Source: Candidatus Obscuribacterales bacterium
GTDB taxonomy: Bacteria; Cyanobacteriota; Vampirovibrionia; Obscuribacterales; Obscuribacteraceae
Assembly (NCBI GenBank): GCA_019745415.1
Contig: JAIETF010000053.1
Location: 1 to 64,000 of the forward strand
Direction: 5' to 3'
Length of the DNA: 64,000 bases
Each line of letters starts with the position of its first letter. Positions within the stretch are counted from its first letter, which is position 1. The notes under the pieces were generated by a model. The model was not told where the DNA came from, ran no database searches, and saw only the letters and a list, made by a program, of their open reading frames with translations. A program made the translations under genes and the position numbers. Positions 19,855 through 34,261 of this stretch are shown one piece after another.

Positions 19855-21339
19855 TTAGCCTATGCCTGGCGGTGGATTGCGGCGCAGCTCCTCTTCGCTG
19901 ACCGTGGTGTAAAAGAGCGGCTGCCAATTCTCAGACAAGCGCATCCAATTACTGGTGCCGATTCCATCAGAGTTCTCTAGACCAACTGCTGTGCCGCTAC
20001 CATGGGCATACCAGTCGGCCCCTTGGTCAATGACCAGGTTAGAGTTAGGACGGTCGGCCCGCACCGAACCTGAAATATATATGCCGTCTATATTCAGATT
20101 CGAAAAATCTCCACGACTGCCAATCCATGGCTGGAAGTTATAGCCTTCGGGCGGAGACTGAAAACTAGCTATGCCGTTTTCATTTGTGATTGGTCTGTCA
20201 AAGACTGCATACATATCTCTAAAGTCGGCATATGATAAACCTCCTCCGATGCCGCTCTGGTTCTGGTTTTGCAATTCAACCCATCTGCCGTCTGTGGTAT
20301 GAGCATAGCTGCGAAAATTAGTCATTTCCACACGTGCGTTGGGATCGGCTTCTTTGCCCTTTTCTGGATAAACCATATTCCAGGCCATCATATAGTTGTA
20401 TTTATCATCAGGCACTGTCGGTTTGTCTACACCAGCTCCGGCTTTTCCTCCAAACCAGCCGAAATGATCGGTGTTCTCACCGGGAAATACTTGATTGGCA
20501 TTTCTACTGTTTTGTTGCAATACTTGCTCTACTGTACCTCTTGTTGGTTTGCTGCGATCTGGTTGTGAACTGTCTGAAACGCTTGTGTTATCGGTGGTTT
20601 CATATTTAGAATCAGAATAATTATCTGAGGGGCCGCCAACGCCATAATACTCCCCGGAGCCACCGTCGCCACCACCACATCCACCATCACCGCAGCCACC
20701 GCCGCCACCATCACCGCAGCCACCATCACCGCCACCACCGGAGCCATCGCCGGCACCGCAACCAGCACCAGCGCCATCGCCTGTGCCGCAAGAAGCAGCA
20801 CCGCTATCACCACCGGCTCCAGAACTCTCGGCAGGTGCGGGACCACTTCCGCCGCCGCCACCGAATCTTCTTCCGTGACTATCGATGCAATGGGTTTCGC
20901 TCTCAGTCCTGCCATTGCGATAGCGGCGCTCACGGCTGACGCAAACGGTTTCTTCGTCTTCTTCAGACTCTCGGTGCATATCTTGTTCATCATCGGTACT
21001 AAAAGAAAGTTCGGGTAACAGATTACGTCTCAGGTCTCTCAAGTCTTCTCTGGCTTCTTGCATCCACTGCCTGGCTATATGGTGGCTGCCTCTATCGCTT
21101 GCTCGGTCTGCTCTTTCCAAGTCTAGTAGTAGTTCGTCGAATTTGTCTTCGGTCAGTCGATTTCTCTCTTGGGTGATTAACTTGTCTAGTCCTTGAGAAA
21201 GGCTGGGTGACATATTCTTTGAATTGTCTCGCATCAGCTCTAGTAAATTTAGGTTCGATTGTTCCTCTCTATATTGTTTGTTCTCATCATTGCAATTTTG
21301 AAAGTCCAATGGACTTTCCATGTGGTGCACTCTTACCAT
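19855..21339 (-). CDS. Orphan protein with Gly/Asp/Cys-rich central region
   Basis: A 494-residue protein of no recognised family. Residues about 1-160 are polar, charged and helical (many Glu/Arg). Residues about 158-230 are almost only Gly, Asp, Ser, Ala and Cys, including GDGGCGDGGGGGCGDGGCGG, with Cys spaced every few residues. Residues about 265-494 look like a folded beta-rich domain with many aromatics. No signal peptide is visible. ATG at 21339 is chosen (GGAG 9 bases before). A Gly/Asp/Cys linker could bind metal or be a flexible surface spacer; both are guesses. It ends at a shared terminator with the HxlR gene. Confidence 0.72.
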   Translation of the reverse strand: MVRVHHMESPLDFQNCNDENKQYREEQSNLNLLELMRDNSKNMSPSLSQGLDKLITQERNRLTEDKFDELLLDLERADRASDRGSHHIARQWMQEAREDLRDLRRNLLPELSFSTDDEQDMHRESEEDEETVCVSRERRYRNGRTESETHCIDSHGRRFGGGGGSGPAPAESSGAGGDSGAASCGTGDGAGAGCGAGDGSGGGGDGGCGDGGGGGCGDGGCGGGDGGSGEYYGVGGPSDNYSDSKYETTDNTSVSDSSQPDRSKPTRGTVEQVLQQNSRNANQVFPGENTDHFGWFGGKAGAGVDKPTVPDDKYNYMMAWNMVYPEKGKEADPNARVEMTNFRSYAHTTDGRWVELQNQNQSGIGGGLSYADFRDMYAVFDRPITNENGIASFQSPPEGYNFQPWIGSRGDFSNLNIDGIYISGSVRADRPNSNLVIDQGADWYAHGSGTAVGLENSDGIGTSNWMRLSENWQPLFYTTVSEEELRRNPPPGIG

Positions 21340-21514
21340 GGGTGGGTTCTCCGGTCGGTTCACGTTGTCAAGCTAACCCGGCGTTATGTCGAAAATATGG
21401 CGAAAGCGCCTAGAGAGATTAATTGCCGAAAAGACCGCTAATCGAAGACGTCTGCGAGACTCTTACAGCCAACAAAATCTTCAAGCTGCCGAAAAGAGCT
21501 ATTAATCTTTCTGC

Positions 21515-21715
21515 TTGATTGAATCTGATGAAAATAGGCAAGACGATCTGCTAGAAGAAATCGTCAATTCGTTTTTTCTATACAACCTTTTCCAAATCAA
21601 TAAGACCGGCACTTTCCTGCAGATGTCCATCAAGTCGAACCAAAGGGTTCGACGATTTCGCATTGCCTTGTGCAAGCGAATAAACCTCAACCAAATCAGA
21701 GAACTACTCAAATGA
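21515..21715 (+). CDS. Possible small ORF coupled to the glyoxylate-cycle gene
   Basis: A 66-codon frame starting with TTG. Its TGA overlaps the ATG of the next gene (ATGA at 21712-21715), a layout typical of translational coupling. The peptide is acidic at the start and basic at the end and has no recognised family. No ribosome-binding site supports the TTG, so it may be chance. Confidence 0.25.
21634..21653 (+). promoter_or_regulatory. Leader hairpin before the malate synthase-isocitrate lyase gene
   Basis: GTCGAACC, loop AAAG, GGTTCGAC forms a perfect 8-bp stem 58 bases before the ATG. It has no U-tract, so it is not a terminator; an operator or an RNA element is possible. The rest of the 372-base spacer 21340-21711 shows no other clear signal. 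Confidence 0.35.
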
Positions 21716-24696
21716 AAGCAAATCGAGCAGAAATCAGGTTTCCAGCCCCAGCCGTTCTCAATCTTGAAAAGCAATTTGCTCATATTCTTACTGATGAAGC
21801 TATCAACTTTCTCGTCACTCTCTCAGACTCTTTCGAAAGTCGCAGACAACAATGCTTGCTCGATAGAAACCGAAAACAACGCTATATAGATAATCGCAAA
21901 GCTCTCTATTTTGCTTGTTCCAGTCTGTCTATCGGTCAGGAAGACTGGAAGGCTGCCCCTTGCCCAGCTGAAATTGAGAAACGACAGGTGGAGATCACAG
22001 GCCCGGTAGACGCCAAAACCATTATCAATGGTCTCAACAGCGCAGCCGATGTTTTTATGGCCGACTTTGAAGATAGCAGCTCGCCAAGCATCGCCAATAT
22101 GCTTTCTGGTCAAGCCAATCTCTATTGCGCTGTGCGCCGTAATCTCAACTTTATAAACAAAGAGGGTAAAAACTACTTTCTAAAACCCGACACCAATACA
22201 GTTCTAATGGTCCGTCCGCGCGGCTGGCACCTGGAAGAAGCCCATCTATTAATAGACGGAAAGCCTATTTCAGCCTCACTTTTCGACTTTGGACTTTTCT
22301 TCTTTCATAATGCCAGAGAGCAAATCAGCCGAGGCAGCCGTCCTTATTTCTATTTGCCCAAGCTTGAAACCCACCTGGAAGCCAGACTATGGAACGATGT
22401 CTTCAACTTGGCTCAGGACTTGCTTGGAATCGAACGCGGCACAATTAGAGCCACTGTCTTGATTGAAACAATCGTAGCCTCTTATGAGATGGAAGCCATT
22501 CTCTTTGAACTGAAAGATCATGCTGCCGGCCTCAATGCCGGACGCTGGGACTATATTTTCAGTCTCGTCAAGAGATTTAGGCAGCACCCTTCAAAGGTCT
22601 TACCAGACCGCAGCGAACTGACTATGGAAGTCTCTTTCATGCAGGCCTATTGCCGCCGGCTGGTCGACATCGCTCACCGCCATGGTGTTCACGCCATCGG
22701 CGGCATGTCGGCGTTCATACCCAACCGCCATGATGCGGCAGCGAACAAGCTGGCTTTCGAGCAAGTGGCGCAAGACAAGAGACGCGAAGCAAACCAAGGT
22801 TTTGATGGCACTTGGGTGGCCCATCCCGACCTGATAGCCATCGCCAGGCAAGAATTCGCGCAAGTACTTGGCGAGCGCAGCAACCAGAAAGAAAGAGTCT
22901 TGCTTGACACCGAAAGGGTCAAACCAGAGGAACTCTGCTATATGGACAAAGTCTCGCTAAAAGTGAGCGAAATCGGCGCACGCCTCAATATAGAAGTAAG
23001 CCTTCTTTATCTTAGCGCCTGGTTAGCCGGTCGGGGTGCTGTGGCCATTCACAACCTTATGGAAGATGCGGCTACCGCTGAAATCTCTAGAGCACAGCTC
23101 TGGCAATGGCTAAAGCACTCAGCTCTGATGAGCAGCGGCGAGAGATTCAGCCGCAAGCTCTTTCGCAAATATCTAAGGGAAGAGTTCAATCGCCTTCTGC
23201 AAGAGCAAACACACAAAGAACAATCACACTATCTGCAGCAAGCCCGCACCATTTTGGAAAAAGTGGTGCTGAGACAGGGTTTTGTCGAGTTCATCACCAG
23301 TGAAGCCTATGCCTATCTGCTCGACAACGAATCAACAAATATCAAGAGTCAAACAATTATGAACACACAGCAGGAAAATCAGGAAGAAGCGCAGAGCCAC
23401 AACGAGATCATCTCAGAGGCAGCCTTGATGGAAGCCGGGTGGAAAGTGCAAGAGCGCTGGCAAGGCATCAAACGGCCCTATAGTGGTGAAGACGTGATGC
23501 GCCTGCGTCCTTCCATTTTGCCCGATTGCAATCTGGCGCGCCATGGTTGCGAACTGCTTTGGCAGCGCATGCACACTTTGCCCCAGGTGATCGCTCTGGG
23601 AGCAATGACAGGTGCGCAAGCGGTACAGATGGCCAAAGCCGGACTGCAAGCCATTTACCTAAGTGGCTGGCAAGTGGCGGCTGATGCCAATCTTGCCGGA
23701 CAGACCTTCCCCGACCAGAGCCTTTATCCTTCCAATAGTGCACCAGCATTGGTGCGTCGTCTCAATAGCGCTCTCATGCGCCACGACCAAATTTTAAACT
23801 TAACCGGGCAGGGTTCGACCGATTGCTATCTGCCCATTGTCGCCGATGCAGAAGCCGGTTTTGGTGGTCCTCTTCAGGCTTTCGAATTAATGAAGCAGAT
23901 GATCGAAGCGGGCGCTGCGGCTGTGCACTTTGAAGATCAGCTGGCTGCCGAAAAGAAGTGCGGACATATGGGCGGCAAGGTACTGGTACCAACCTCGCAG
24001 TTCATTCGCACTTTGGCAGCGGCGCGCATGGCTGCCGATATCATGAACGTTCCGACTTTGATTGTTGCCCGCACCGACGCTCTCGACGCCACCCTTTTGA
24101 CCTCCGATATCGACGAAAGAGACAGACCTTTCATCGTACCCGGCTCAGAGCGCACCAGCGAAGGCTTCTATCGCGTCAAGGGCGGGCTTGATGCCGTCAT
24201 TGCCCGCGGTCTGGCTTATGCACCTTATGCCGACCTGGTCTGGTTCGAATCATCCCGCCCCGACCTAGAAGAAGCCCGCCTCTTTGCTGAAGCCATCCAT
24301 GCAAAATATCCAGGCAAGCTTTTGGCTTACAACTGTTCGCCATCGTTTAATTGGAAGAAGAACCTGGACGATGCCACAATCGCCCGCTTCAATAGTGAAC
24401 TGGGCAAAATGGGTTACAAATTCCAGTTCATTACTCTAGCCGGCTGGCATGCTGTCAACCTGAGCGCCTACAAACTCAGCCAAGAGTACGCGCTTGAAGG
24501 AATGCCTGCCTATGTGCGGCTACAGGAAGAGGAATTCGCCCTTGCCGATCAAGGTTACTCGGCGGTACGGCACCAAGCCGAGGTCGGCGCCGGTTGGTTC
24601 GACAGACTTCTGCTCAGCATCACCGGCGGAGAGTCATCCACCACAGCTTTGAGCGGCTCCACCGAAAGCGAACAGTTTCACGACCAAAAGAAATAG
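21712..24696 (+). CDS. aceB/aceA: Malate synthase-isocitrate lyase fusion (bifunctional glyoxylate-cycle enzyme)
   Basis: A 994-residue cytoplasmic protein. Residues about 10-540 are malate synthase [26 protein letters not shown], catalytic Arg region [39 protein letters not shown] and [11 protein letters not shown] are all present. A linker (about 541-560) leads to isocitrate lyase (about 565-980) with [30 protein letters not shown] (catalytic Cys750 in KKCGH) and [10 protein letters not shown]. Together the halves turn isocitrate plus acetyl-CoA into succinate and malate, so one chain carries the whole bypass. An internal ATG at 23359 opens the lyase half but lacks a convincing ribosome-binding site. 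The start at 21712 matches the usual AceB N-terminus. A strong terminator follows. Confidence 0.93.
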
Positions 24697-24871: not shown

Positions 24872-27800
24872 TTATTGGAGCTTACTAGCGCTCGCACCAG
24901 TCAAAGCAGCAATTGAAATAGTACCGGTGTCTCGCAGCACCTGAGCTTGGGCATTGCGAAATTCCACAAAGGCTCTAATTTGGGCTGCTAGCGCGTTGAC
25001 ATAAGAACGCTGCGCCTCGATCAATTCTAAATTGGTGCCATTACCCAGCGATAATCTTTTCGATGCCAGTCTCAACCCTTCTCTTGAAGCATTGACATTA
25101 ACCTCGGTGATATTTATCTGTTCTTCGGCGGTCTGCATATCAAGAAAAGAGTTATGCACTTCCTGAGTTATCTTGAGCAGTTCTTGGTTGTATTCATATT
25201 GAATACGTCTGGCAATAATTCTATTGGCTTCCATATTGGCCATATCACTTACCCCCAGTCCAGAAAGATTCCAGGTTACCGATGTGCCGAGAGTGACGCT
25301 GCTGCCCAAGACCCCGCCGACATTGACACTGCTTGTACCAGTGCCGGTTGTAGACAGATTGACGCCGGCAGCCGAAGTAGCACCTCCGGCCAACCCAGAC
25401 GATAGACCAGCTAGCCCGCCTGCGCCCGAAAGTTTGGTATTACTGGGTGAGACAAAAAGTTGCGCAGTGGGCAAAAGCGCACTGCCGGCTTGAGCGATGG
25501 CCGCCTTAGCAGCTCGACGCTGGGCTTCCAGAGCCTTCAACTCCGGTCTGAGGCTGCGCGCTCTGGCCACAAGCTCGACTGGTTTGGCGGCGGGATCTAT
25601 TAAAAATGTCTTGCCCAGTGTTTCTTCTTTGGGTAAAAGGTTATCCATGATATCGCTGTTCAAGACCACAGCTAAAGCAATAGCCGCTTTGCGCGTGGCC
25701 ACCTGCTGATTGACCAAGTTCTGAGCATCTGATGCCAACTGCGATTCAGATTGCATTACCGCAAACTTAGTGCCTATACCGGCTCTAAATTGCTGCTTGG
25801 TGAGCTTGAGGTTTGCCCTCGATGTTTCCAGAGATTTGATGCGCACCTGCAAAAGCGCCTGATTATAGAGCACTTCGTTATATTTGCGGTAGACATCTAA
25901 AAGTACGTCGTTGACTTGCTTGCTATAGTCGTTCCTCGCCGCTTTCATATTGTAATAGGTGTTAAATGCCGTACTTACCACTTTGCCGCCTTGAAAATAA
26001 GCCCAAGTGAGCGATGTATTGCCGGTGCGCAAATTGAACAATTTATCGCCGCCTTGATAAACATTCTGATAGCGGTAGGTCATGCTCAAGTCTGGCAAAA
26101 AGCCGCCAAGAGAACCTGCAAAGAGAGCTCTTCTAGCTTTATAGTTATCGTTTGAAATCTTGATCGGCAAGTTATTACTTAATGCTTGTTGCAGTGCTTC
26201 CGCCAGGGTGATACCGCGGTTATAACTAGCTTCAAGTTTGATGGGCGGCAGTTTCTGTTGACCAATAGGCAAAAGAAAAGTGGCATCGGGATACTTGATG
26301 CTTATGCCCTCTTGCGCGGCTTCCGGCAGAGGCTGCAATAGCGTCTCTGTTATCTCTTCCGCCTTACGATACTCTGATTCCAAAAGTGTCTCGACATCTT
26401 GATCGCTTTTGGCGGGACTGCTCAAATCTTGAGCAATAGCCGGCTGATAGGCATTTGCAGCCAAGGCTATACCGGCAAGCAAAAGACTGAGACTGACTTT
26501 CTGCACCAGATCTTGCTTGCTTTTCTCTTTTTTCCCGGCTGCGCCGCTAAGCTTTTCTTTCCATTCATTGAAAATGGTGAAGATGACCGGTACAACAATC
26601 AGGGTTAACAGCGAAGATGTTGCCAAACCGCCAATCACAGCCACAGCCATGGGCGAACGCACTTCTGAACCAGCACCGAGACCCATGGCAATAGGCACCA
26701 TGCCGGCCACCATTGCCAGAGTGGTCATCAAAATAGGGCGCATACGCGCATCACCGGCGGTGCGTATTGCCTGGTCGACACTCATACCTTGATGCATCGA
26801 CATCAAGCAATACTCCACAAGCAGTATGGCATTCTTAGCCACCAGCCCCATAAGCATAACTATACCAATGAGAGCATAAAGCCCCAGAGGTTGCCCGGAA
26901 ATCATGAGAGCGGCGATAGCTCCGCCGATAGAAAGAGGCAGAGAAGTCATAATAGTGAAGGGGTGCACAAAATCGTTGAAGAGCAAAACAAGCACACAGT
27001 ACATAAGCAATACCGCCGCCACAATGGCTACGGCAAAGCCCTTGAACACATCTTGCTGCAGCTCCACATCTCCCGAAGGTGATTCCACCACCGAAGCCGC
27101 TTTGTTCTTAAAGGCCGGCAGGGCGCGTATTGCTTCTATCGCCTCACCTAAGGGCATTTTGTCTACAAGTTGGGCGCTAATTAGCACCTGTCTTTGCTTG
27201 TCATAGCGAGTAATCTCGGAAGGTCCGCTGGTGACATCAATCGAAGCCAGGGCGGACAAAGGTATAAGGGCACCATTAATCGAGCTGACTTTGAGATTAC
27301 GTATCCATTCCAAATCTTTCTTAAACAGCGGGTCTATCTGTACGCGCACATAAATTTGGCGGTCGGGAAGATCAAAGCGGCCAAGAGCAATATCAGCATC
27401 ACCAATAGTGGCAACCAGGGCTGTGCGGGCGATAGATTGCACGGTTACTCCGTGTTCCGCCGCCAACTCACGGTTTGGTTTAATGACCAGCTGGGGCGCC
27501 TGCAGTGAAGCATTACTTTGCACGTCGGCTAGACCCTTTATGTCTCTCATCTGCCTGGCAAGCTCTTGTGCTGTAGCATCAAGCTCGGTCGGATTAGAGC
27601 CGACCAAACAGAAATCTACTCGACCGCCGGGACCACTGGTATTGATAAACTTAGTACGAATGGAAGGCACGTTTTGAAGCACTTCTCTAATTTGCTGCTC
27701 CACCACTTGCTGCGAATCTTTTCTTTCACCCCTGTGCTTGAGGCTAATGTATAGATTGGCTTTATTGACCTTGCCGCTTTCGCCGCCGCTGCTTATGGAA

Positions 27801-29590
27801 GAAGCCTCGCCGGGCGTGCCCACAGCCGAGAAAACCCGTTCGACATTTTTGTTTGCCTGCACCAGCTTACTTATTTTCAAGACTGTAGCGGCTGTACCTT
27901 CGATGTCTTTGCCCGGTGGCAGCTCTACCGACAAGATAGTCTCACCGCGGTCTACCGAACCAATTAAGTTCATCGGTATTAGCGCAGTCAAGCCTAAACT
28001 AAAGAGAAAGAAACCAAAAGCAGCCGCCAAAGTGGTTTTACGATGCTTGAGGGCCCAATCGAGACAGACATCGTATAGTTCGACCAGCTTAGAACGTCCG
28101 CTTTCAGCCGGCGGGTTCTTCAGCCAAAAGGCAGCCATCATCGGGGTCATAAGACGAGCCACCACCAAAGACATAAAAACGGCGATGGCTACAGTGAAGC
28201 CGAACTGACGAAAGAACTGACCGGGTATGCCCGATATAAGCGCCAATGGAACAAAGACAGCGATAATCGAAAAGGTTGTAGCGACAACAGCCAGACCAAT
28301 TTCGTCGGCGGCGTCAAGTGCTGCCTGATAGGGCGTCTTGCCCATGTGAATGTGTCTGACGATATTTTCGACTTCAACAATAGCGTCGTCGACCAAGATA
28401 CCAATTACCAAAGCCAACCCTAAAAGCGACATATCATTCAGGGTATAGCCCAAGAGTTTAATAAAGATGAAAGTAGGTATCATACTGAGAGGCATAGCCA
28501 GAGCCGATATGCCGGCAGAGCGCCAGTCTTTGAGAAAGACCCAGATGATCACCACGGCCAGCACCGCTCCCAATACCAATGATTCGATGGTGGCGTCGAA
28601 CGACTCTTGCACATAAACAGCACTGGTGCGCACTTTTTCAATCTTTACCGAAGGCGGCAAAGTAGCCTTCATTTCATCAAGCTTGCGGTCGACCATTTTG
28701 GCCACCTGGGCCATGCCTCTACCGGTGCTGCGCTTGAGCGAAAACGCTACAACCGGTTTGCCATCTAAATAAGCCATCTGTCTGGCTTCGGCATGAGAAT
28801 CTTCCACCGTGCCGAGACTGGAAAGAGGGGCAAACTCACCGTTACGTAGAGCTATTTTAAGATTGCGTAATTCGTCTATGTCATGCGCACTGCCGACAGT
28901 TCTGATGGTCTGTTCGGCACCGGCTAAGCGCCCTCTGCCTCCCGGCATATTGATGTTGCGCAAACGTACCTGGTTGTTCACGCTTTCAGCTGTAAGTCCG
29001 ACAGCCTCCAGCTTAGCAGGGTCTAGATTGATTCTTACTTCGCGGGCTACACCGCCTGAACGCTGCACCTGCCCCACCCCAGGCACCGACAAAAGCACAC
29101 GGCTGATATCGTTATCAATAAGCCAGCTAAGCTCAGTATCGCTCATGCTGTCTGACGAAACTGTATAAGTGGCAAAGGCCTCGCCGGCAAAGTCAAGTCT
29201 TTGGATTATTGGTTCAGTGATCTCGGCTGGCAGCGAGGCTCTAATGCGATTAACCCGATCGCGCACATCGTTGACGGCGCGGTCGGTATTGGTGCCTAGC
29301 TCAAACTCAACCGTAGTAGTAGATGAGCCTTCCGAAATATTGGAAGTTATGTGCTTGATATTGGATAAACCCGAGAGTGCGTCTTCAACTTTGCGAGTCA
29401 CCTGAACTTCCAACTCGGACGGTGCCGCACCACTCTGGGCTATGCTTATGCTCACTGTGGGCATGTCGATATTGGGCAATTCATCCATCTCAATCTGGGT
29501 GAAACAGACCAGCCCAGCGATAGTGAGCATGATAAAAAGCAAAATGGAGGGTATAGGCTGTCTGATTGTCCAGGCAGAAATATTGAGCAT
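24872..29590 (-). CDS. RND efflux pump fused to TolC-type outer-membrane factor
   Basis: A 1572-residue protein. Residues 1-1012 are a full HAE-1/AcrB-type RND transporter, with the TM1 start QPIPSILLFIML, DELPNIDMP, proton-relay Asp401-Asp402 (GILVDDAIVEVEN), two large periplasmic loops and 12 expected helices. After a short Lys-rich cytoplasmic stretch, residues about 1029-1054 look like a signal peptide (VSLSLLLAGIALAANAYQPAIAQ region). The rest (about 1055-1572) is a TolC/OEP factor with the repeated helical barrel pattern (GITLAEALQQALSNN...; RRIQYEYNQELLKITQEV). A GTG codon at 26506 could start the TolC half separately, but no strong ribosome-binding site precedes it. The adaptor gene lies 22 bases upstream. 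Drugs or other hydrophobic compounds are the likely substrates. Confidence 0.92.
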   Translation of the reverse strand: MLNISAWTIRQPIPSILLFIMLTIAGLVCFTQIEMDELPNIDMPTVSISIAQSGAAPSELEVQVTRKVEDALSGLSNIKHITSNISEGSSTTTVEFELGTNTDRAVNDVRDRVNRIRASLPAEITEPIIQRLDFAGEAFATYTVSSDSMSDTELSWLIDNDISRVLLSVPGVGQVQRSGGVAREVRINLDPAKLEAVGLTAESVNNQVRLRNINMPGGRGRLAGAEQTIRTVGSAHDIDELRNLKIALRNGEFAPLSSLGTVEDSHAEARQMAYLDGKPVVAFSLKRSTGRGMAQVAKMVDRKLDEMKATLPPSVKIEKVRTSAVYVQESFDATIESLVLGAVLAVVIIWVFLKDWRSAGISALAMPLSMIPTFIFIKLLGYTLNDMSLLGLALVIGILVDDAIVEVENIVRHIHMGKTPYQAALDAADEIGLAVVATTFSIIAVFVPLALISGIPGQFFRQFGFTVAIAVFMSLVVARLMTPMMAAFWLKNPPAESGRSKLVELYDVCLDWALKHRKTTLAAAFGFFLFSLGLTALIPMNLIGSVDRGETILSVELPPGKDIEGTAATVLKISKLVQANKNVERVFSAVGTPGEASSISSGGESGKVNKANLYISLKHRGERKDSQQVVEQQIREVLQNVPSIRTKFINTSGPGGRVDFCLVGSNPTELDATAQELARQMRDIKGLADVQSNASLQAPQLVIKPNRELAAEHGVTVQSIARTALVATIGDADIALGRFDLPDRQIYVRVQIDPLFKKDLEWIRNLKVSSINGALIPLSALASIDVTSGPSEITRYDKQRQVLISAQLVDKMPLGEAIEAIRALPAFKNKAASVVESPSGDVELQQDVFKGFAVAIVAAVLLMYCVLVLLFNDFVHPFTIMTSLPLSIGGAIAALMISGQPLGLYALIGIVMLMGLVAKNAILLVEYCLMSMHQGMSVDQAIRTAGDARMRPILMTTLAMVAGMVPIAMGLGAGSEVRSPMAVAVIGGLATSSLLTLIVVPVIFTIFNEWKEKLSGAAGKKEKSKQDLVQKVSLSLLLAGIALAANAYQPAIAQDLSSPAKSDQDVETLLESEYRKAEEITETLLQPLPEAAQEGISIKYPDATFLLPIGQQKLPPIKLEASYNRGITLAEALQQALSNNLPIKISNDNYKARRALFAGSLGGFLPDLSMTYRYQNVYQGGDKLFNLRTGNTSLTWAYFQGGKVVSTAFNTYYNMKAARNDYSKQVNDVLLDVYRKYNEVLYNQALLQVRIKSLETSRANLKLTKQQFRAGIGTKFAVMQSESQLASDAQNLVNQQVATRKAAIALAVVLNSDIMDNLLPKEETLGKTFLIDPAAKPVELVARARSLRPELKALEAQRRAAKAAIAQAGSALLPTAQLFVSPSNTKLSGAGGLAGLSSGLAGGATSAAGVNLSTTGTGTSSVNVGGVLGSSVTLGTSVTWNLSGLGVSDMANMEANRIIARRIQYEYNQELLKITQEVHNSFLDMQTAEEQINITEVNVNASREGLRLASKRLSLGNGTNLELIEAQRSYVNALAAQIRAFVEFRNAQAQVLRDTGTISIAALTGASASKLQ

Positions 29591-29612: not shown

Positions 29613-31022
29613 CTAGAGTGTGGCGCTTCTAACTAAGTCGCCGTCGGCAACAAAGACCGTTCCTTCTTTGACTATTGTTTCGCCGGCTTGCAAGCCGTCT
29701 AAAATTTCCACATAGCGATCATGGCGCAACCCTGTGTTTACACGTCTTTTGCGAGCAACACCATTCTCAATCACCAAGACCGAGGCCTTCTCATTTTCAT
29801 AAGCAAGGGCAGACTCAGGCACCGCCAAGCTTTCACGGCTAACAGTGGCGATTGTAGTGGTGACGAACATGCCGGCTTTGAGGTCTTTATCTGTCGGCAA
29901 GGCGATTCTAATTTTGCCAAGCCTTGAAGTCGAATCGACACTGGGAGCAAGCAACCAGACTTTGCCGGTTAAAGAGCGTTTGCCATCGCTCACCAGCACT
30001 TCCTGCCCCAGTCTAATTTGGTCTAAATCTTGCTGAGGCAGCTTGGCTTGCAATTCTAGTTCGCCGTTGCGAATCATCTTATAGATGATTCCACCGCTAT
30101 ATATTTCGCCAAGATGAGCACTTCTTTCGACAATTAGACCGGCATCGGGAGCCTTGACTATGGCTTGCGCTATCTGGGCTTGCAGCTGCTCGACACGAGC
30201 CCGGTGCTGAGCCACGGTGCTGGCGGCGATACTAATATCTTCGTGCCGTCCACCGGTCTGCATTTCATTCAGTCTCAGCCTTTCTCTCTCTCTATTTAGC
30301 TGAGCCTGCCGCAAGCCTTCCTTGGCGGTTTCAAGAGCCGCCTTGTAAGATTGCACATCGGTCCGCTTTTGCTCGGCTTCCTGGGCAGTAGCACCGCCTT
30401 CCCGATAGAGAGACGAATACCTTTCAGAAATTGAAAGTGCATTGCTATATTCAGCCGATGCTCTGGCTATGGCTGCTTCTTTCTGAGCGATGTCGGCGGC
30501 TGTGGAATCGAGCGCAGCTCGCTGCATTTTAATTTCTTCTTGCCGATTGGGCTGCAAAGATTTCTGGTAGCTGGCGGCGGCATTATCTAAGAGTGCCTGC
30601 TCTTCCTTAAGCTGAGCATTCAAGATATCGGTATTGAGCCGGGCTAGAATCTGACCCTTTTGCACCCAGTCGCCTTCTTCGACAAAAAGAACATCGATTT
30701 TGAGCCCGTTAGCCTGAGAACCTATTTCTAGGGGATCTCTGGCCATAACCGTGCCTGTAGCCTTGATCTCTCTAGCCAGAGAATGTTTGTCGACCCGGGC
30801 AGTCTCTACTGTGATTGCCCTTTTCACCGGCTTTTCGTTTTTGCCCTGACCGGCTACAAAATTGCCCATCCCGATGACCAATGCTAGAGCAGAGCCAAAG
30901 GCCAGTCCCAGCCAGAGCCTCTTATTTTTAAAGACTTTCAAGAAACTCTTTTCGGGTTTGCTGAAGCCTAAGAAGCGCCCGGTTGGGCATGTCGTTCTCT
31001 CTTTTTCTTGTGTTTCTAACAT
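29613..31022 (-). CDS. Efflux RND periplasmic adaptor (membrane fusion protein, HlyD/AcrA type)
   Basis: A 469-residue protein. A basic cytoplasmic N-terminus and one membrane helix (about 36-58) lead to the split lipoyl domain (GLKIDVLFVEEGDWVQKGQ and AIVKAPDAGLIVERS). It flanks a long alpha-hairpin (about 135-270, with AALDSTAADIAQKEAAIARA). Beta-barrel and membrane-proximal domains follow (AKLPQQDLDQIRLGQ; VPESALAYENEKASVLVIENG). It bridges the RND pump and the outer-membrane channel. It is the first gene of the two-gene efflux operon, divergent from a TetR regulator. Confidence 0.92.
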   Translation of the reverse strand: MLETQEKERTTCPTGRFLGFSKPEKSFLKVFKNKRLWLGLAFGSALALVIGMGNFVAGQGKNEKPVKRAITVETARVDKHSLAREIKATGTVMARDPLEIGSQANGLKIDVLFVEEGDWVQKGQILARLNTDILNAQLKEEQALLDNAAASYQKSLQPNRQEEIKMQRAALDSTAADIAQKEAAIARASAEYSNALSISERYSSLYREGGATAQEAEQKRTDVQSYKAALETAKEGLRQAQLNRERERLRLNEMQTGGRHEDISIAASTVAQHRARVEQLQAQIAQAIVKAPDAGLIVERSAHLGEIYSGGIIYKMIRNGELELQAKLPQQDLDQIRLGQEVLVSDGKRSLTGKVWLLAPSVDSTSRLGKIRIALPTDKDLKAGMFVTTTIATVSRESLAVPESALAYENEKASVLVIENGVARKRRVNTGLRHDRYVEILDGLQAGETIVKEGTVFVADGDLVRSATL

Positions 31023-31103: not shown

Positions 31104-31176
31104 TTTGTTATCGAACACCTGTTTATTATAAAACCGTTGTGTGAAAAAAGTCCAGCCATCTGTTACATTAGATTTG

Positions 31177-31746
31177 ATGCCTAAGATTGTCGACCACGAA
31201 GAATACCGCCGCGAGCTCTTGACTAAGAGTTTCGACGCCATGGCTGAGAAGGGCTATAGCGCCCTCACCATGCGCGATCTATCTAAAGCAATTGGGGTTT
31301 CAACCGGCACAATCTATCACTACTTTGAAAGCAAGCAAGCTATCTTTGAGGCTCTGCTTGACCATTTCTTAAATAGTAAAGCTACTAATTTCGTAGAGTT
31401 CGCCGCTCAGTCAAAGAACTTTGAGCAAGGACTCGACCTCTTGCTCGACTGGATGCAAGAAAACGAAGAATACTTCATGAAATGGACCCTCATTCAAATA
31501 GATGTATATCGCTCAGGCGACGAAGTACTCTTGACCAAAATGCGCGATACATTTTGCTCACCCGCCTTGCTTGAGATATTCAAGCAAAGACTATTCATAG
31601 ATGACGAAAGCATCTGTGATTTCATCGGTGTGTTTATGTCGGGCATGGTCATGGAAAGAGCCCTCTCGGGTAGAGATCTGAGATGGAGTCAACAAAGAAC
31701 TCTTCTAAAGACCATGCTTCAGCTCTATTTTAAGAAACATAAGTAA
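31177..31746 (+). CDS. TetR/AcrR-family repressor of the efflux operon
   Basis: A 189-residue regulator. The N-terminal HTH is clear (ALTMRDLSKAIGVSTGTIYHYFESKQAIFEALL at about 28-60), followed by an all-helical ligand domain. The ATG at 31177 places the HTH at the usual distance from the N-terminus. A GTG 36 bases upstream would add 12 residues; neither start has a good ribosome-binding site. It is divergent from the adaptor/RND-TolC operon, with an inverted repeat between. It very probably represses that operon until an effector binds. Confidence 0.88.
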   Translation: MPKIVDHEEYRRELLTKSFDAMAEKGYSALTMRDLSKAIGVSTGTIYHYFESKQAIFEALLDHFLNSKATNFVEFAAQSKNFEQGLDLLLDWMQENEEYFMKWTLIQIDVYRSGDEVLLTKMRDTFCSPALLEIFKQRLFIDDESICDFIGVFMSGMVMERALSGRDLRWSQQRTLLKTMLQLYFKKHK

Positions 31747-31777: not shown

Positions 31778-34261
31778 CTATTGTCTAACCCAATATTCAT
31801 CTCGCGGATAGAGATCGTGATTTAGCTCAACTGCTGGAAACTTAGTGGTCGAGACTCTTCCATTGTCTTGATCAAGTATCTCGCTCAGTAAGGCACGGCA
31901 GTCGGCACCGGTTTCTTCGCAATAGTCGGGAATGCGACTCTCGTCATACCTTTGCAAAACCTGTGCCTTGCCTGCTTCAAAAGGGGTCATACTACCGACC
32001 ATTGTCGCTCCGAACGAAAGCACATAAGGAAAAGAATTGGCCACTGTGCGCATTGTACGCTGGGTCGGACACCAGACTGCCACTATGCCGCCAGGCTTGA
32101 GATACCGCTTGAGATTCTCGAAATGCTCTTTTGAATAGAGCATGCCCGAGCCGGAATCATAGGGACGCAGAGGATCCTGCTCAATGACGTCATACTTACG
32201 ACCCTCTCTTTGCAAACCCTTTCTGCCATCGGCAAAGACCATACGAATGCGCTGGTCAGAAAGCAAACGACTGAGCGGCTTGTATGGCTTCGTCTTATTT
32301 AGCTGCTTGAGACAGTCATAAGTGGGCTCGACAATCTCAAAGCAAGTGATGTTTTTGGTCAATTGATTGGCACCACTGGCATATAGTGTATTGCCGCTGC
32401 CCAAACCGATGACAGCCACATCTAAGGGCTGAGGATGCAAAAAGACAGGCAAAAGACCAATCTGTGAATGATACCGCCCATAGGGCAATTCGCTATGACC
32501 TTGTCCATTGACATAAACAAAGGTGTGCTCAGGGCTCCAGCTTACCGGGCCGGTGGCGGCAAGACCACTGTGATCTTCGCTCATAGTAAACTGACCGGGG
32601 CTGCAATAACCGTGCAGTTTATGCCAAATTTCTTTAGCATTGGGCACATAGAAAAAGAGCCCAAGGGCGGCAGCAGCAGTCAAAACAAGAGAGAGACCGC
32701 CAGAGAGAGCTGGTTTATTCAACTTCTCTTTGAGTAGACCAAAGAGCCACATAAACAAAAAGATACTGCCGCCCAAAAGAAAGAGACGCAGGGTGCCTGA
32801 TGTCTTCAAATATCTAAGGGCAAACAAACCGACAAAAAGCGACCCCAAGGTCGAACCGATAATATTGGCTGTCTGCACCAAACTAATGCGTCTGCCAACA
32901 AATTTGAGGTCGGTCTGCAAGACCTTTTGCAGGCTGACAAAACTCATACCCATCAATGTCACAGGCGGCACAATCAAAGCAGCCGGAAGAAAGACATAAA
33001 GCTGCAAGAGCAATTTAAGCGGCGGTATTTTGGCGCTAAAATCGATTGGATCATACTGTCCGAAGAACTCAAAGAGACTTTTGAACACTGAATCAAAGCC
33101 TAGATTCTTGACGAAAAAGGCAAGGGCAACCACTGCATAGATACTGCAAAGTGATTGAAACAGGAAAAAGTCGGATGCAGGATTTTTGCGCCTGGCGAGC
33201 AGTCTTGAACCAAGCAAGGTGCCGGCGGCAAGCCCAAACAAATAAAGAAACAAAAGCCAACCATAGGTCATCGAATTGGCTTTGAGCATGACCGAGATTA
33301 GCCTGAACCACAAAATCTCAAGACCAAGCGCTAGAAAACCTGAAAGAGCACTGAATGTCGCCCAGGCCGCCAGACGAGGTCCGGTCATCGCTTGAGAAAC
33401 CGCCGGAATCAGGGTAGCCTCATCCAATTGTTCTTTATTAGACTTCGCCGCTACCGAATCAATATGTGCTTGAACACGCTCAGGCTCAGCCGGGCACTCT
33501 GCATCGACCTGATCGCCAGCGAGGCGGCGCGCCCGGCTGCCCACGATAAAGGCGCCCAGAGCACAAACTAAGTTAAGAGCTGCACTGAGATAAAGACTCG
33601 GTTCATAGCCTAGATTGCGAACCATAAACAATGCCGCCACCAAAGAGCCAACCGCCGAACCCATTGTATTCAAGGCATAAAACCAGGCAATACTTATCGG
33701 AGCTCTGGCAATAATGGTGATAAAAGCCCTAGAGATAACCGGCAGGGTCATGCCCATAAAGAAAGTCGGCAAACAAAGCGCAGCAAAAACGACAATAAAA
33801 GCTAACAGGCGGGAGTCACCCAGAAAAGGCACCCGACAATAGAGAAAGTCATAGAGCAAGACCTTGCTGCCGGCGCCGAAAAGACCTATCAATAGCTCAG
33901 AGACGGCAAAGGCAAAAATCAACGAAGAACGGCGCTGCATTTTGTCGCAGATGATACCACCGGCGAGACTACCAACACCCATGCCGAGCATGCAGGCGGC
34001 AGTTATCAAACTAACTGAAACAGTTTCTGCTCCTGTAAAAAGACCGAGCATACGCTGCCAGACAACTTGATAAACCAAAGCACAAAAGCCTGAAACAAAA
34101 AACAATAGCAAAATCATCAACAAAGCAGCATTATTGTTATTGCTTGCTTTGTCGTTATTGCCAGGAACTTTATTACTAGGAACGTTATTAACTGGTTCGC
34201 TATCAGTCGGACGGCTTTTGTTTGGCGCACTGCTTACCGAGGCAGAACTTTCATCTGTCAT
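31778..34261 (-). CDS. Membrane-bound spermidine synthase-like protein (MFS/aminopropyltransferase fusion)
   Basis: An 827-residue protein. A Ser/Asn-rich disordered N-terminus (1-44) precedes about 12-14 membrane helices arranged like the fused MFS/spermidine synthase family (FVSGFCALVYQVVWQRML at about 55-72, GMTLPVISRAF, and a second set after residue 300). The C-terminal domain (about 600-800) is a Rossmann methyltransferase-like fold with VAVIGLGSGNTLYASG, an acidic strand (CFEIVEP), and EQDPLRPYDSG where spermidine synthases have the catalytic D-A/S-x-D region. The real substrate of this family is mostly unknown. Single gene. Confidence 0.82.
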   Translation of the reverse strand: MTDESSASVSSAPNKSRPTDSEPVNNVPSNKVPGNNDKASNNNNAALLMILLLFFVSGFCALVYQVVWQRMLGLFTGAETVSVSLITAACMLGMGVGSLAGGIICDKMQRRSSLIFAFAVSELLIGLFGAGSKVLLYDFLYCRVPFLGDSRLLAFIVVFAALCLPTFFMGMTLPVISRAFITIIARAPISIAWFYALNTMGSAVGSLVAALFMVRNLGYEPSLYLSAALNLVCALGAFIVGSRARRLAGDQVDAECPAEPERVQAHIDSVAAKSNKEQLDEATLIPAVSQAMTGPRLAAWATFSALSGFLALGLEILWFRLISVMLKANSMTYGWLLFLYLFGLAAGTLLGSRLLARRKNPASDFFLFQSLCSIYAVVALAFFVKNLGFDSVFKSLFEFFGQYDPIDFSAKIPPLKLLLQLYVFLPAALIVPPVTLMGMSFVSLQKVLQTDLKFVGRRISLVQTANIIGSTLGSLFVGLFALRYLKTSGTLRLFLLGGSIFLFMWLFGLLKEKLNKPALSGGLSLVLTAAAALGLFFYVPNAKEIWHKLHGYCSPGQFTMSEDHSGLAATGPVSWSPEHTFVYVNGQGHSELPYGRYHSQIGLLPVFLHPQPLDVAVIGLGSGNTLYASGANQLTKNITCFEIVEPTYDCLKQLNKTKPYKPLSRLLSDQRIRMVFADGRKGLQREGRKYDVIEQDPLRPYDSGSGMLYSKEHFENLKRYLKPGGIVAVWCPTQRTMRTVANSFPYVLSFGATMVGSMTPFEAGKAQVLQRYDESRIPDYCEETGADCRALLSEILDQDNGRVSTTKFPAVELNHDLYPRDEYWVRQ

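Follow-up and report, generated by a model that had tools for sequence, protein, structure and literature searches.

How can a pump of the inner membrane and a channel of the outer membrane come from one reading frame, and what becomes of the joined chain? The question is raised by a gene in the 64,000-nucleotide stretch of DNA analysed here (the window), from a Candidatus Obscuribacterales bacterium. A single open frame on the minus strand (29590-24872) starts with ATG and runs through 1572 codons without an internal stop. Pfam searches placed in it a complete HAE-type RND pump and, continuing in the same frame, a TolC-type outer-membrane factor (OMF), so that the open reading frame and the domain matches bear out the original prediction of an AcrB-type pump and a TolC-type factor encoded as one 1572-residue chain. 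Two full-length conserved domains joined in one open frame are far beyond chance. The features of the locus, with the evidence for each, are the following.

31141..31746, plus strand: divergent TetR-type regulator (PF00440)
29613..31022, minus strand: periplasmic adaptor gene (MFP), 22 nt upstream of the fusion in the same operon (HlyD_D23/HlyD_3; TIGR01730)
26567..29590, minus strand: RND pump half, residues 1-1008 (PF00873, MdtB relative, relay residues)
26498..26566, minus strand: cytoplasmic tail and Lys-rich n-region, residues 1009-1031, EWKEKLSGAAGKKEKSKQDLVQK (sequence)
26504..26506, minus strand: in-frame GTG, V1029 (also GTG in the congener)
26447..26497, minus strand: hydrophobic h-region, residues 1032-1048, VSLSLLLAGIALAANAY (hydropathy; alignment with signal peptides of free OMFs)
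26432..26440, minus strand: putative signal peptidase I site A-I-A, residues 1051-1053, followed by Q1054 (kept in the congener)
26222..26431, minus strand: N-terminal extension of the mature OMF, residues 1054-1123 (long extensions also in free relatives)
24872..26221, minus strand: TolC-type OMF core, residues 1124-1572, and stop codon (PF02321 twice; OprN match)

The fused gene and its operon

The RND half is matched by ACR_tran (PF00873) over residues 5-1007 with an E value of 1.5e-242, covering positions 2-1020 of the 1021 in the model, and its best solved relative is MdtB (9lyq, E 9e-129). Proton-relay residues, located by motif, are D401 and D402 in TM4, K919 in TM10 and R951 in TM11; all of them are invariant across the four fusions found in this study. 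Multidrug models gave 741 bits, a score under their curated cut-offs, versus 419.5 bits for the heavy-metal (CusA/CzcA) model TIGR00914, whose cut-off is 701, and the RND half thus misses the metal type. By these scores the substrate class of the window pump is predicted to be multidrug-like HAE. CusA/CzcA-type heavy-metal pumps with a C-terminal TolC/CusC domain are annotated in Bacteroidota. Those CusA-CusC fusions have the same domain order, but are of the heavy-metal type and belong to another phylum. Since multidrug models outscore metal-type models here, the window pump is not simply of the Bacteroidota type.

In the OMF half, PF02321 (OEP) was found twice, the best repeat being residues 1339-1555 (E 3.6e-41). 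OprN and OprM are its closest solved relatives, and the match in sequence is clear (OprN 5iuy, E 2.4e-9); an AlphaFold2 model of this half, built from two sequences only, had a mean pLDDT of 39, too low for the model to be of use. The closest group of sequences, 43-44% identical, is formed by the free OMFs of OMF-adaptor-MacB operons, which adjoin an adaptor and two genes in ABC-exporter order in the window genome itself (G000) and in G001, G024, G030 and G033. Domain tests of the neighbours in the window genome gave an adaptor, a MacB-type permease and an ABC ATPase. Judging from this similarity, it seems that the RND pump was joined with a copy of the channel of a MacB-type ABC exporter. When plasmids were searched, the OMF half alone gave no match; the plasmid matches otherwise came mostly from Proteobacteria.

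The adaptor scored 166.7 bits against TIGR01730 (RND_mfp), over the cut-off. Adaptor, pump and channel make up a complete tripartite efflux operon, with pump and channel in one frame. The divergent TetR-type regulator probably controls this operon, and a sigma-70-like site, by consensus match only, lies at 31154-31125 on the minus strand. The operon resembles AcrAB-TolC, MexAB-OprM and MdtABC in having all three parts, in keeping the relay residues and in having MdtB and OprN/OprM as best relatives, but differs from them in that pump and channel are one chain. Searches of open-licence papers found none that describes a natural fusion of an RND pump with an OMF. The locus shows that an inner-membrane pump and an outer-membrane channel can come from one reading frame.

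Other genes of the window were noted as well. Malate synthase and isocitrate lyase, both enzymes of the glyoxylate shunt, form one 1008-residue chain (21670-24696, plus strand), which is also present in Candidatus Obscuribacter phosphatis and, in a version about 59% identical, in the genome G001. An 827-residue chain (31778-34261, minus strand) combines an MFS-type membrane part with a spermidine-synthase domain, and a 502-residue open reading frame (19855-21363, minus strand) contains a long low-complexity stretch rich in Gly, Cys and Asp.

The junction and the fate of the joined chain

The chain does not begin with a Sec signal peptide for the OMF half; that peptide lies inside it, at residues 1029-1053. 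Residues 1009-1055 read EWKEKLSGAAGKKEKSKQDLVQKVSLSLLLAGIALAANAYQPAIAQD in the window and EWKEKLSVAAGRQEKSKQSLVEKVSLNLLLVGVLALSAALQPAFAQD in O. phosphatis (G002), which carries the same fusion. From the RND side, a Lys-rich stretch is followed by a hydrophobic segment and then by PAIAQ. The hydrophobic segment reaches a peak Kyte-Doolittle mean of 2.46 over the 12 residues from 1034, with a 19-residue mean of 1.58. Hydropathy and alignment thus agree with the original prediction, which had accurately positioned a signal-peptide-like segment at about residues 1029-1054.

Comparison of the two copies showed that the linker (residues 1009-1056) is the sole fast-evolving part of the gene, with a dN/dS of 0.24-0.30 versus about 0.02 on its flanks, a rate at least 10-fold higher. 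Signal peptides are commonly under relaxed constraint. The letters of the linker differ in the congener, but its character is kept (Lys-rich, hydrophobic, P-A-x-A-Q), and the cleavage site is preserved as PAIAQD in the window and PAFAQD in the congener within a segment that is only about 62% identical. The junction can be aligned with N-terminal signal peptides of free OMFs, one of which, that of the G030 protein, ends in PAFAQ. In a second RND-OMF fusion, found in the genomes G048 and G066 and described below, the junctions likewise align with the signal peptides of the free OMFs of sister genomes. From these alignments we infer that the junction is the OMF's own signal peptide, retained at fusion. 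Going by alignment and the -3,-1 rule alone, the sites would be AIA|Q in the window, AFA|Q in the congener, VYS|A in G066 and MYS|E in G048, the last being a weak or poor site for signal peptidase I.

The fusion is probably a precursor that is cut by signal peptidase I to yield a normal tripartite pump with 1:1 synthesis of its parts. In this reading, a three-gene efflux operon (divergent TetR, adaptor, RND pump) would have acquired, in frame with the 3' end of its pump gene, an OMF gene that kept its signal peptide and came from a group whose other members stand beside MacB-type ABC exporters. The ribosome would then release one 1572-residue precursor, whose RND half would insert with its C-terminus inside, and the internal signal peptide would export the OMF half. 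Signal peptidase I would cut after A1053 and free the OMF for assembly through Omp85, leaving synthesis coupled 1:1 and the two membranes untethered. Export, cleavage and assembly of the OMF half are predicted steps; each of the four fusion genomes (4/4) has one match to signal peptidase I and one to Omp85. The C-termini of RND pumps are cytoplasmic, and this topology, together with the signal-peptide character of the segment, agrees with the earlier proposal that the segment has to export the second half.

That proposal had also offered cleavage or self-processing of the chain. Cleavage appears probable; self-processing found no support, as no autoprocessing element was found in the fused chain and signal peptidase I is encoded in all four fusion genomes. 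The suggested 1:1 stoichiometry by design applies to synthesis, where the gain is small, since RND tripartite pumps already consist of three RND and three OMF chains. A precedent for the arrangement is FbcH of Bradyrhizobium, a cytochrome b/c1 precursor with a retained internal signal peptide that is cut inside the polyprotein. There, too, a multi-spanning inner-membrane protein is followed by an exported protein, although FbcH belongs to a respiratory complex and not to efflux. If cleavage is true, the fusion is a clean natural case in which signal peptidase I yields two proteins for different membranes.

Another source of free channel would be the GTG at 26506, which was probably the start codon of the OMF when it was still a separate gene. 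If it were still used, a free OMF precursor would be made besides or instead of the fusion. We regard continued use as unlikely. The GTG is common to both congeners and would open a textbook signal peptide (MQKVSLSLLLAGIALAANAYQPAIAQ), and a related family starts its OMF directly after the RND stop codon. However, the best anti-Shine-Dalgarno pairing has only -2.9 kcal/mol and lies about 19 nt upstream of the GTG, so that no Shine-Dalgarno sequence stands at the right distance, whereas the unfused family keeps AAGGA just upstream of its ATG. No promoter-like site was found near the junction, and termination-reinitiation needs a stop codon, of which there is none here. In G048 no start codon is present that would retain the signal peptide, and internal initiation is therefore not a general explanation, though it may add free OMF in Obscuribacter. 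The mature OMF would be the same by either route, if signal peptidase acts.

It is quite unlikely that the chain stays uncut, with the hydrophobic segment as a 13th transmembrane helix and a spacer of about 70 residues keeping the pump covalently tethered to the channel across the envelope. The segment does resemble a weak transmembrane helix by its 19-residue mean, and the window spacer (residues 1050-1124) is long enough. Counted from where the hydrophobic segment ends up to the first OMF helix motif, the spacer has 74 residues in the window, 76 in the congener, 34 in G048 and 25 in G066, corresponding at 3.5 A per residue to a maximum reach of about 259 A in the window, 119 A in G048 and 88 A in G066. 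The periplasmic part of AcrB measures 40+30 A and that of the OMF about 100 A, with the equatorial domain of the OMF (helix H1) half way along the latter (PMC8277102). Adding half of the OMF length to that of AcrB, at least about 120 A would be needed to reach the equatorial domain, and an uncut chain with a reach of 88 A could therefore not assemble in G066. By length, the need for cleavage is thus nearly absolute in G066, borderline in G048 and absent in the window type. Long N-terminal extensions occur in free relatives as well, which indicates that the spacer is no adaptation for tethering; OMF signal peptides of the ordinary, cleaved sort can be aligned with the segment, which retains its AxA; and the outer-membrane machinery would have to insert an OMF still anchored in the inner membrane. 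If the chain did remain uncut, it would be a permanently coupled trans-envelope machine, and models of how the components of two membranes meet would need change.

Conservation and origins of the fusion

The fusion occurs in two species of Obscuribacter, a non-photosynthetic relative of cyanobacteria. In O. phosphatis it is intact and 97% identical to that of the window, and lies on contig MOYA01000004.1. Gene order is common to both genomes, with the adaptor, the TetR-type regulator and the MFS-spermidine synthase gene on one side and the malate synthase-isocitrate lyase gene on the other. The frame is thus uninterrupted in a separate genome, which answers the concern, raised with the original prediction, of a stop or frameshift near 26500. 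The two copies have diverged at silent sites to a dS of about 0.75 (range over the main parts, 0.73-0.76). The RND part has a dN/dS of 0.005-0.021 and the OMF part one of 0.013-0.032, and the copies differ by a single indel, of two whole codons, in the linker. Low dN/dS against this amount of silent change, together with the lone in-frame indel, argues that both halves are selected as proteins in the joined frame. There is a negligible chance that the fusion is an artefact of assembly or sequencing, or the result of a recent read-through mutation heading to decay: the window genome is a draft in 118 contigs, but the fusion recurs on a separate contig of the congener with heavy silent change, a two-codon indel that keeps the frame, and a dN/dS of at most 0.03 in both halves, so that we can conclude that neither faulty assembly nor gene decay accounts for it.

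The distribution of the fusion was surveyed with a model of the fused chain, taking the two best candidates per genome and about 150 matches listed; the surveys bound the frequency for this kind of pump only, and fusions of other RND subfamilies could escape them at both class and phylum level. Among the matches listed from 289 genomes of the class, end-to-end matches without stops occurred only in the window genome, O. phosphatis, G048 and G066. A phylum sample of 244 genomes gave no further fusion among the matches listed.

The fusion of G048 (L061:4231-8904) and G066 (L084:3228-7871) belongs to another melainabacterial family. Its RND halves are 72-73% identical to each other and 31-32% identical to that of the window. 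As in the window, pump and channel are joined in one frame through the OMF signal peptide with the adaptor just upstream, but the spacer is much shorter (25-34 residues). In four genomes of the same family (G053, G058, G061 and G064; L085-L088) this pump and its OMF are encoded by separate genes in convergent orientation. Because these sister genomes keep separate genes, the G048/G066 fusion must have had an independent origin, and because those genes are convergent, the OMF gene had to be inverted or re-inserted. A pump-channel fusion has therefore arisen at least twice in one bacterial class, with the signal peptide of the channel retained each time.

A likely pre-fusion state is seen in a third family, f5 (L062, L118-L130), where the RND and OMF genes share a frame and are parted by a single TAA in all 14 junctions read. 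ATG follows the TAA directly in 12 of the 14, and in most of them an AAGGA-like ribosome-binding sequence lies inside the last RND codons. This TAA-ATG junction is ordinary tight coupling; loss of one stop codon in such a junction would give a fusion like that of the window.

Within Obscuribacter's own family no fusion was found elsewhere among the matches listed, and a third congener (G001) has no close copy. The idea that the fusion is general in this family was rejected, as the nearest RND genes among the matches listed, whose products are 54-59% identical to the RND half, end normally. These free pumps have short polar tails, and all but one of those opened had no detectable OMF alongside. 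The exception, G015, has two separate downstream OMF genes, whose products are about 27-33% identical to the OMF half of the window.

Two further long frames were set aside. One in G299, also of 1572 residues, owes its length to an upstream extension in GC-rich DNA. The other, in G354 (L136:3878-7897, minus strand; 1340 residues), is an RND pump lengthened at its C-terminus by about 300 residues, which by eye are unlike an OMF. In G064, a frame of 677 residues just upstream of the RND gene (L085:8058-10091, minus strand) combines a glycosyltransferase family 2 domain with an HlyD-type adaptor.
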